A stretch of DNA of 64,000 bases from Candidatus Altimarinota bacterium (lineage in GTDB: Bacteria; Patescibacteriota; Gracilibacteria; BD1-5; UBA6164). The notes under the pieces are model-generated. The model saw only the letters and a list, made by a program, of their open reading frames with translations. It made no database searches and had not been told where the DNA came from. Below, one piece after another: positions 12,115 through 35,959 of the stretch. The first letter of the stretch is position 1. Every line of letters starts with the position of its first letter. The translations under genes were made by a program, and so were the position numbers. The stretch covers positions 62,001 through 126,000 of the forward strand of contig JAQTOS010000002.1 in NCBI GenBank assembly GCA_028713225.1. The letters run 5' to 3'.

Positions 12115-12193
12115 ATTTCAAAATTGTTAAGAATTTTATTCCTCTAATTATATAAAAACTAAGTAAAAAAACTAAAAAACTATAAAAATAAAT

Positions 12194-12221
12194 TTGACAT
12201 TAGTTTTTTTTTACATATAAA
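12194..12221 (+). promoter_or_regulatory. consensus promoter of the 12.2-kb unit
   Basis: TTGACA, 16 bp, TATAAA. It has the same layout as the promoters at 5011, 33445, 34060 and 50129, all in front of foreign-looking units. Confidence 0.75.
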
Positions 12222-12260
12222 CAAGAAGTCTTTTCAAAAAAATCTTTAGAGGACGTAAAA

Positions 12261-12416
12261 ATGATTAAGAGAATTATAAATTCTCTTCTAGCTCTTGTTT
12301 CAAATCTTATGTTATTTCTCATTTCACTTTTTGTGAAAAACAATTTGTGTTTTGATGAAAAACAAAGTTTTGGACATCAGTCTTATGAAGAGAAGCTTTC
12401 ATTGTCTCCTGCTTAG
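12261..12416 (+). CDS. 51-aa hydrophobic peptide in foreign-looking unit
   Basis: Starts with ATG six bases after a clear SD (AGAGGA), unlike native genes. The N-terminal ~27 residues are hydrophobic ('LLALVSNLMLFLISLFV') with two basic residues in front, so a single membrane segment or signal peptide; the rest is polar and ends at TAG. The single glycine is GGA. It is preceded by a consensus promoter and followed by several hairpins. No family recognised. It may be a small membrane peptide, or only a leader for the structured 3' part. Confidence 0.5.
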   Translation: MIKRIINSLLALVSNLMLFLISLFVKNNLCFDEKQSFGHQSYEEKLSLSPA

Positions 12417-12568
12417 AGCCCGAAAGGGCAATAAATTATTTTCCGCCTTGCGCGGAGGTCTAATAAAATTCGACTTTTAGAAGTCTAAAAATAAATGTGG
12501 TAAATACTTGTGGAAAGGAATAATATCTATTTACCCAAATTTTCTCTGGAGCTTAGGCTCCTTTTTTT
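12417..12568 (+). ncRNA. structured 3' region and terminator of the 12.2-kb unit
   Basis: Four hairpins in 150 nt: GCCC-GAAA-GGGC (12418-12429), TCCGC-CTTGC-GCGGA (12442-12456), GACTT-TTAG-AAGTC (12472-12485), and GGAGC-TTAG-GCTCC plus T7 (12548-12568, the terminator). G+C-richer than flanks. The 90 nt before the terminator hold no ORF. Could be a riboregulator or stable RNA that carries the 51-aa ORF at its 5' end. Confidence 0.5.
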
Positions 12569-12667
12569 GTGTTAAAAAAATAATATAAAAAAACAAGTGA
12601 AATTTTGGCTTTATTCAAAAAAATATGTTAGAATTAGTTAAATATTTACTTAGATAAAAATAAATTT

Positions 12668-33084: not shown

Positions 33085-33438
33085 AAAATAAAAAAAGCCC
33101 AAGCCAGAAAGGTCTTGGGTGGTAATCATAGAAATTTGTTTAAAAAATCTATGAACAGGATATCTTAGTGTAAAGGACATCTTGCGATGTTGTTAAATTT
33201 CATTAAGTGAGATTATCCTTGTTGTCTACTTATTTTTGGCAGATGCATTGAGGTCGGAGGTCTTTGCATCACCTGATAAGAGAACGGGCCATACATTCAC
33301 TAGAAATCTAGGAATGGTTCATAAGTTGTTTGTCTTGCGATGTTTCTGCGTTGCTGCTTTTTTGTCTAATGCCGGTTTGAATCTTTAAGGAGAATATTAC
33401 CGTTTTTCGTTTTTTCGCAAGCAAAACTAACTTAGAAC
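33085..33438 (-). ncRNA. candidate ~350-nt structured RNA
   Basis: Bounded by a consensus promoter (33445-33472) and a strong terminator (CCCAAG/CTTGGG at 33098-33119, U-run to 33085), both minus strand. Between them no SD-led ORF of useful length exists; the longest ATG-started frames are a few codons to about twenty. Strong local stems: ACATCGCAAGATGT, CATAGA...TCTATG, GATGCA...TGCATC, and CATTC-CTAG-ATTT-CTAG-TGAATG. G+C-richer than flanks. I looked for RNase P, tmRNA and 6S signatures and saw none. Novel RNA or decayed gene; the former is favoured by intact ends. Confidence 0.5.
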
Positions 33439-33481: not shown

Positions 33482-33517
33482 AAAAAAAATGTCCGTCCCT
33501 TGGTAGAGGGTACGGAC
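33482..33517 (-). terminator. terminator of the 33.5-34.1 kb unit
   Basis: Minus strand GTCCGT...ACGGAC hairpin with G/C-rich interior (ACCCT/AGGGT-like pairing), then U8. It lies immediately behind the promoter of the 350-nt unit, so the two units are in tandem. Confidence 0.82.
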
Positions 33518-33777: not shown

Positions 33778-33918
33778 TTAGGCAGATGCGCCGGCGAAAG
33801 CCGCGGCAAGATCGATTGTACCGGTCGTTTTTTTCATACTAAGTGCCGTCATCTCGGCAGTCGCTGCGATGATTCCTGGCGGCTTGTTTGAAAACATATT
33901 GCATCCAATCGGTTTCAT
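33778..33918 (-). CDS. 46-aa peptide in foreign-looking unit
   Basis: Starts with ATG after a canonical SD (GAGGAG, 5-6 nt spacing) and stops at TAA. Sequence starts 'MKPIGCNMFSNKPPG' and ends 'AAAFAGASA'; mildly hydrophobic, Ala/Thr-rich, no family recognised. All glycines GGN. About 135 nt of leader separates it from its promoter; the leader has stems such as TTTCCATTTTTGGAAA and GTTGTTGTACAAC, so expression could be controlled there. It may be a real small protein or a leader-peptide-like ORF. Confidence 0.42.
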   Translation of the reverse strand: MKPIGCNMFSNKPPGIIAATAEMTALSMKKTTGTIDLAAAFAGASA

Positions 33919-34053
33919 GGAATTCTCCTCAGAAAAAATTTTTGGTTGTACAACAACACTGACTTTGCGCTGGCTTGCTCTAGGAGCCGATACGAATTTC
34001 CAAAAATGGAAACCGCTATGCCTTGCGTGTTTTCGTTTATCAGGATGTTGACG
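33919..34053 (-). promoter_or_regulatory. long structured 5' leader of 46-aa ORF
   Basis: 135 nt between the predicted transcript start and the SD. At least two local hairpins are visible. No riboswitch class recognised. An overlapping open frame on the same strand (up to 34100) has no SD and is probably chance. Confidence 0.35.
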
Positions 34054-34059
34054 AGATGA

Positions 34060-34087
34060 GTTATAATGAAATTTATTAATATGTCAA
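34060..34087 (-). promoter_or_regulatory. promoter of the 33.5-34.1 kb unit
   Basis: Minus strand TTGACA, 16 bp, TATAAC. Confidence 0.72.
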
Positions 34088-34246: not shown

Positions 34247-35959
34247 ATGAAACACTTAAAAATCAACATAAATAATTACGAAATTTGATGAACTCAGATA
34301 CTGAAAAATGTAAATCTTATACTAAACGAAAATGATAAGATTTCTATTGTTGGTCCAAACTGAGCAGGGAAAACAACTTTGATGAAAATAATCACCTGAG
34401 AAATCGGTGATTTTGATGGTGGAATAGAAAATATTTGAGGATTATCTATCTGATATTTGAGACAAATAAACTATGATGATGAAGCTAAAACTGTTTGGGA
34501 AGAATTAAAAGAATCATTTGTAGAAATTCAAGAAATAACTAGAAAACTAGATATTTTGGAGAAAAAAATGTCAGAGTTTCCGGATGATTTAACAGTTATG
34601 CAAGAATATTCTGATTTAATAGAACTTTTTAATAATATTGACTGATATTCTTATGAATCTGAAATTCATAATGTTGCAGGATGAATCTGAATAGAAGAAT
34701 TGTTACAAAAGAAAATTTCAGAAGTAAGCTGATGACAAAGAACAAAAATTGCTTTGGCAAAGATTTTGCTTTTAAAACCAGATTTACTTTTTCTTGATGA
34801 ACCAACGAATTTCATAGATTTGAAATGAGTTGAATGGCTGGAAAAATATTTAAATGAAAAATGGAAAAATGGGTATTTTATAATATCTCATGATAGAGAA
34901 TTTTTGGATAAAACTTGTAATAAAACTCTTGAATTGCAAGCCATTTGAAGGGAAGTGAAATTGTATCATGGTAACTATACTCATTATTTAAGTGAGAGAG
35001 AAAAATATGAAAACATAGCTGTGGAAAAGTGGCAAATGCAAGAAGAATATTTAAAAGAACAAACTACTCTAATTAACAGATTTAGAGCTGGTTCTCGTGC
35101 TGGTTGGGCAAAATCAAGGGAAAAACAATTAGAAAAAATGGAAAAATTAGAAAAACCATTTATTCCTAGGAAACCAAAATTTGCTTTTGAAGAATTTGAA
35201 ACTAGTGCTGAAAATATTCTTTATTTCAAAGAAGTATTTATTGGTAGAAAAGATCCACTTTTTTATATAAATGAACTTAGACTTCCAAAAGGAAAAAGAG
35301 TCTGAATAATCGGAGAAAACTGAGTAGGAAAATCTACTTTTATAAAAACGATTTTATGAGAATTAGATGTTTTAGAATGACAATATATTAGATGAAAATG
35401 AATGGAAATTGGTTATTATAGCCAAATGCATGAAGAACTTCAAAAAGAAAAAACAGTTTGGGAAAATTTTGAATCGCATTGACTTCACTATACATACGAA
35501 CAACTTGCTTGATTTTTGAATTATTATTTACTTGATAGGGAAGTTATACATTCAAAAGTGAAAAATCTCTCAGGATGACAAATGTCAAAACTGCTTTTTG
35601 CAATCTTATGACAAAAAGAAACAAATTTACTTGTACTTGATGAACCTACAAATCATCTAGATTATGATACTAGGGAAGCTCTAGAACAAGCATTACAAAA
35701 ATACAAAGGAACAATTATTTTTATATCTCATGATAGATATTTTATCAATAAAATGTCAGATTTTTTATGGCTTATAAAAGACTGAGAGCTAAAAGTAAAT
35801 TACTGAAATTATGAAGATTTACTTTATAAAATAGAAAAATGACTAAGTTTTGATGACAACCTAGTTGATATAGACAAAGAAATGGAACTTGTGCTTCTTG
35901 AAAAAATTTGAGAGAAAGAATTAAAGAGACTAAAAGAAAAATATCATAGGAAAAAATAA
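34247..35959 (+). CDS. ABC-F family ATPase (ribosome-associated)
   Basis: Predicted 570 aa with two ABC domains and no membrane segments. Domain 1: Walker A 'GPNGAGKTT' near residue 37, signature 'VSGGQRTK', Walker B '[12 protein letters not shown]'. Linker with charged '[20 protein letters not shown]' (P-site tRNA interaction motif region). Domain 2: 'GENGVGKST', 'LSGGQMSK', '[12 protein letters not shown]'. ABC-F proteins act on the ribosome (translation factors or antibiotic protection); which subtype cannot be assigned. TGA-Gly lie in both Walker A and signature motifs. Stop is in a long hairpin. Confidence 0.92.

Follow-up and report, generated by a model that had tools for sequence, protein, structure and literature searches.

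In the intergenic stretch that separates genes for an M23 peptidase and an ABC-F ATPase, a Gracilibacterium carries on its minus strand a structured, well-delimited orphan transcription unit, which we call E1 and regard as an unproven sRNA candidate. Our main reading, to which we give a probability of about 0.45, is that E1 specifies a discrete, lineage-restricted, structured non-coding RNA whose likeliest mode of action would be that of a base-pairing sRNA covering SDs. The source genome (G000, 1.24 Mb in 19 contigs) uses code 25 (TGA=Gly), an assignment made because its genes read through only with TGA as glycine. The window is the whole stretch of 64,000 nucleotides that was analyzed (G000:C7:62001-126000), and positions given without a contig name refer to it (Table 1). 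When the flanking M23 protein was scanned against genome contigs, it led only to Candidatus Gracilibacteria STF1_204 (G001), the sole same-genus relative of G000 among the genomes compared.

E1 is delimited by its own promoter and terminator

A sequence-only reading had described this region as a discrete unit of about 350 nt with a promoter and a terminator, giving no strand. All of the signals in E1 agree with the minus strand, with a predicted start at about 33438, and the unit has both a promoter and an intrinsic terminator of its own, as expected of an independent small-RNA gene. The description is borne out in that both motifs occur far more often than in shuffles. The pattern TTGAC-N15..17-TATAA is present 39 times in 451 kb of G000, compared to 10 to 12 times in shuffled sequence, and strong terminator hairpins with a U-run are present 108 times in the same 451 kb, compared to one or two, which indicates that the E1 terminator is not due to chance. 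In a DNA search of 288 genomes of the class, the promoter segment found matches in 30, including its own genome; the sequence downstream of the matches elsewhere, where read, mostly consisted of ordinary genes.

A composition unlike that of the surroundings had also been noted. The GC content is indeed raised, at 32-39% relative to about 25% in the flanks, but this is not a property of E1 alone, as it reaches to about 34070 through a second unit, E2. The two units are in tandem on the minus strand with E2 first and E1 second, an arrangement that had been missed, as had the many GC-richer intergenic islands in G000 with similar signals, most of which encode proteins.

Table 1 Features of the E1/E2 stretch and of SD-led islands in the window
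Feature	Position	Strand	Basis and remarks
M23 peptidase gene	33007-30992	minus	name from reading of translation; one flank of the E1/E2 stretch
E1 intrinsic terminator hairpin CCCAAGACCTTTCTGGCTTGGG	33098..33119	minus	followed by U-run 33096-33080
E1 hairpin CATAGA...TCTATG	33127..33153	minus	folding
E1 candidate 12-aa ORF MKFNNIARCPLH	33165..33203	minus	AAGGA 12 nt 5' of ATG at 33203; weak
E1 hairpin	33190-33177	minus	folding
E1 hairpin GATGCA...TGCATC, loop ACCUCCGACCUC	33242..33270	minus	folding, accessibility; canonical anti-SD CCUCC, unpaired
E1 hairpin CATTC CTAG ATTT CTAG T GAATG	33294..33316	minus	folding
E1 5' domain: long closing stem, A-rich interior, CGGU...ACCG hairpin	33317..33438	minus	folding, accessibility
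UUCUCCUUAA, displayed by the CGGU...ACCG hairpin of E1	33394-33385	minus	folding, accessibility
E1 promoter TTGACT-16-TATAAA	33445..33472	minus	sequence; TTGACT 33472-33467, TATAAA 33450-33445, 16-nt spacer
E2 unit	34087-33482	minus	own promoter, SD-led ORF, terminator; tandem, upstream of E1
E2 terminator hairpin and U-run	33491..33517	minus	sequence, folding
E2 46-aa orphan ORF	33778..33918	minus	SD GAGGAG, 7-nt spacing
E2 5' structured domain	33948..34052	minus	folding; fold common to unit M of G001
E2 promoter TTGACA-16-TATAAC	34060..34087	minus	sequence; orthologous promoter in G001
ABC-F ATPase gene	34247-35959	plus	name from reading of translation; other flank of the E1/E2 stretch
Island: promoter, SD-led 211-aa ORF, terminator	5010-4290 (4980-4331)	minus	no Pfam match above cut-off
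Island: promoter, SD-led 51-aa ORF, terminator	12190-12570 (12261-12416)	plus	no Pfam match above cut-off
Island: promoter, SD-led 57-aa ORF, terminator	58611-58298	minus	no Pfam match above cut-off

The predicted fold of E1 depends on a long-range stem

Without its terminator, the body of E1 (33443-33121, minus) folds at -66.4 kcal/mol (z -3.65), and none of 150 dinucleotide shuffles was as low. Such stability beyond composition is expected of an independent small-RNA gene; in the same shuffle test the tmRNA of G000 gave a z of -1.91 and its RNase P RNA -2.31. The domain formed by the long-range closing stem (33438-33317) gave -2.95, and 120-nt local windows of E1 alone were mostly near zero, so the fold signal rests on the long-range stem and the hairpins jointly. 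Four such hairpins fold besides the closing stem; the earlier reading, which had at least four, is supported in that the fold is significant.

E1 also contains an exact 12-nt direct repeat, AACATCGCAAGA, at 33344-33333 and 33191-33180 (minus), a length equaled in 12 of 2000 shuffles. One copy is inside the closing stem, and the other is a hairpin with a GCAA tetraloop. A bistable switch operating through these copies was rejected, since the alternative pairing is less stable by 16 kcal/mol.

E1 belongs to no recognized RNA family and is so far confined to one genome

The Rfam scan asked for by the sequence-only reading was run on the window, where no family reached its gathering score. In a cmscan with lax filters the only model matching E1 was VrrA (RF01456), at 33219-33089, largely because of the 3' terminator hairpin and flanking helices; at 26.6 bits this is far under the gathering score of 50, and the assignment was rejected. 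The view that E1 is neither tmRNA nor RNase P RNA also holds, as neither model (RF00023, with its tRNA-like ends and tag frame, and RF00010, respectively) matched it and the genuine genes are on other contigs (G000:C9:32421-32885 for tmRNA and G000:C16:41950-42365 for RNase P RNA). It is extremely improbable that E1 is a divergent housekeeping RNA of these kinds or an SRP or 6S RNA. Its size is in the right range and the RF00169 model found no small bacterial SRP RNA in G000, which has 97% completeness, but the substandard VrrA match, the location of tmRNA and RNase P RNA elsewhere, and relatives without the E1 counterpart that would be expected of a housekeeping RNA all argue against it.

DNA searches of 60 relatives and 288 genomes of the class found no homologue of the E1 body, with essentially only promoters matched. 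A DNA search of plasmids and phages gave no match, and no exact 20-mer of E1 was present in viral contigs. The covariance-model check proposed earlier could be followed in part: a single-sequence model of the E1 5' domain was run against the 60 relatives without a convincing match (best E 0.06, taken as chance), and no homologues to align, hence no covariation, were found for E1. At the corresponding sites, a further genome (G015) has the same divergent gene pair, about 145 bp apart and with no unit in between, and G001 has a dCache-like, standard-code-type gene and no E1, so E1 is so far confined to G000. The dCache-type gene (L057:705-1, minus) has no in-frame TGA and matches dCache_1 with an E value of 9e-11, slightly under the Pfam cut-off; it is either a gene of standard-code type within a genome that uses code 25 or part of a chimeric contig.

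The absence of E1 from the sites in G001 and G015, its foreign-like GC content, and the lack of a homologue or an ORF are what would be seen if E1 were the decaying, now functionless remainder of a foreign gene island in which the promoter and terminator have survived. We consider this unlikely, as the fold of E1 is clearly better than that of shuffles and both the promoter and the terminator are intact.

The neighboring unit E2 shares a leader fold with a unit in STF1_204

E2 has a counterpart in G001, unit M, which lies on the same side of the ABC-F gene and has a promoter and 5' end that are clearly orthologous to those of E2. Unit M encodes SD-led mini-ORFs and contains no ORF resembling that of E2; the dCache-type gene lies downstream of it. 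The 5' domain of E2 (34052-33948) and that of M (L057:1168-1056, minus) have the same three-way-junction fold with low sequence identity. Their tree-edit distance is 34, compared to a mean of 66 when the interior of E2 was shuffled with the closing stem fixed (0 of 1000 as close), and in the reverse test, with M shuffled, 2 of 1000 were as close. From our reading of the folds, four of the six pairs of helix P2 (CAG-C-CGG/CCG-A-CTG in M, CGC-AA-GGC/GCC-A-GCG in E2) differ by double compensatory changes. When a covariance model built from M was run on the local 1.3 kb, its best match was the E2 domain over its full length (E 0.028, 11 bits). This line of evidence is weak alone because chance hairpins in AT-rich DNA can score as high and a larger filtered search did not find the E2 domain. 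The domain had no match in Rfam and may be a leader RNA of the genus that is new. E1 was rejected as a relative of it, as the tree distances were not under those of interior-shuffled controls (152 and 397 of 1000).

Two classes of genes are evident in G000

In order to count gene classes, we considered non-overlapping ORFs of at least 90 codons in about 453 kb of contigs C7, C9, and C16 (the window and L076-L095). Among native ORFs, which have at least three in-frame TGA codons, 1 of 325 had an SD, compared to 11 of 17 TGA-free ORFs with at least four GGN codons (Fisher p 9e-16). Genes of the second class form islands that are interspersed with native genes and often have the same type of promoter, terminators, and raised GC content. 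The few island proteins that were scanned are mostly without a recognized family, with none above Pfam cut-offs and no convincing match in PHROGs. We infer that they were most likely acquired horizontally from bacteria or elements with the standard code. Standard-code-compatible phages have been linked to these lineages, in which the integrated prophages are all alternatively coded (PMC10746230). A C-terminal alanine is found in 5 of the 17 TGA-free ORFs and 18 of the 325 native ORFs, and several TGA-free ORFs end in -ASA.

The sharp separation of these two populations makes the expression of foreign genes in a recoded, nearly SD-free host testable. Both the two gene classes and the 5' domain shared by E2 and M merit more attention than E1 itself.

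E1 encodes at most a very short peptide

E1 has no long ORF. The sequence-only reading saw no SD-led ORF at all, which stands insofar as there is no strong one, but the weak 12-aa candidate MKFNNIARCPLH lies behind an AAGGA and is the best SD-led ORF in E1, with 37 of 1000 shuffles (3.7%) as good. It has no glycine codon, and E1 does not show the combination of an SD-led ORF, GGN glycines, and no in-frame TGA that is characteristic of the islands. On balance, we think it slightly more probable than not that E1 is non-coding. E1 could instead be an mRNA in which a long structured leader precedes the ORF of this very short peptide, like other SD-led units here, which we think is rather unlikely. 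Mini-ORF units of this kind do exist (G000:C7:162847-163310, unit M of G001 with MLKVVK, and E2, which has MKNLLHHPP in its 3' part), and AAGGA does precede an ATG in E1, but the 12-nt spacing is long compared to the 6 to 9 nt of other units, and the proportion of shuffles that do equally well also argues against it. The first of these units (L080:16847-17310, minus) has three SD-led mini-ORFs, MKRRFSIFA, MMKIISA, and MKTMINEGGNA, with one promoter and one terminator. The sRNA reading has its own difficulty in that the island class resembling E1 is mostly protein-coding.

E1 loops may cover SDs

If E1 is a base-pairing sRNA, transcription of the minus strand would produce a structured RNA of about 340-360 nt whose loops UUCUCCUUAA and ACCUCCGACCUC could cover the SDs of the few SD-led mRNAs in G000, the first target being the neighboring E2 mRNA, and ribosome entry would thereby be blocked. 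The 16S rRNA of G000 ends in ...GGACTATCTCCTTATAAATTC, from which the anti-SD is UCUCCUU rather than the canonical CCUCCUU, and UCUCCUUA is common to this tail and the E1 loop UUCUCCUUAA. The tail has GGACTATCTCCTTA in place of GGATCACCTCCTTT (L124, G000:C16:242573-244050), and the same change is found in G001 and G004.

Both E1 loops are predicted to be largely unpaired, with opening energies of 2.9 (UUCUCCUUAA) and 1.3 (ACCUCCGACCUC) kcal/mol compared to a median of 5.3 for 10-mers, and AUUCUCCUUA of E1 can pair with UGAGGAGAAU of the E2 SD over 10 bp with one G-U. E1 therefore has what would be looked for in an anti-SD sRNA, an unpaired CU-rich loop that could pair with an SD. Against the 17 island starts, the mean duplex energy of E1 was -12.5 compared to -13.3 for shuffles, of which 84 of 100 did equally well or better; with the E2 SD, 36 of 100 shuffles paired at least equally well. 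The duplex-energy test gave no support in either case, so the anti-SD mechanism is one that we infer, and we hold it to be doubtful. In a broader version, E1 would carry a copy of the anti-SD tail in its loops and selectively silence SD-led, standard-code-like (probably foreign) mRNAs, acting as a translational self/non-self discriminator. This idea draws on a host whose own genes almost all lack an SD and is very improbable.

Comparison with known systems

The literature searched yielded no work on non-coding RNAs from Gracilibacteria, and E1, if transcribed, would be an sRNA candidate in a recoded candidate phylum. Its closest likeness within G000 is to the SD-led islands, with which it shares the promoter type, an intrinsic terminator, raised GC content, and an intergenic position; the islands differ in having SD-led ORFs with GGN glycines, whereas E1 has at most the weak 12-aa ORF. 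VrrA is a Vibrio family, of which E1 is not a homologue. C-rich hairpin loops (UCCC/anti-SD) are known from RNAIII of Staphylococcus aureus and other sRNAs (PMC2837412). E1 is unrelated to RNAIII by sequence or Rfam, has an ORF of at most 12 aa, and is known from sequence alone, with SD targeting unsupported by shuffles. What E1 has in common with RNAIII is its architecture, that of a long structured RNA with its own promoter and terminator and unpaired CU-rich loops (PMC2837412).
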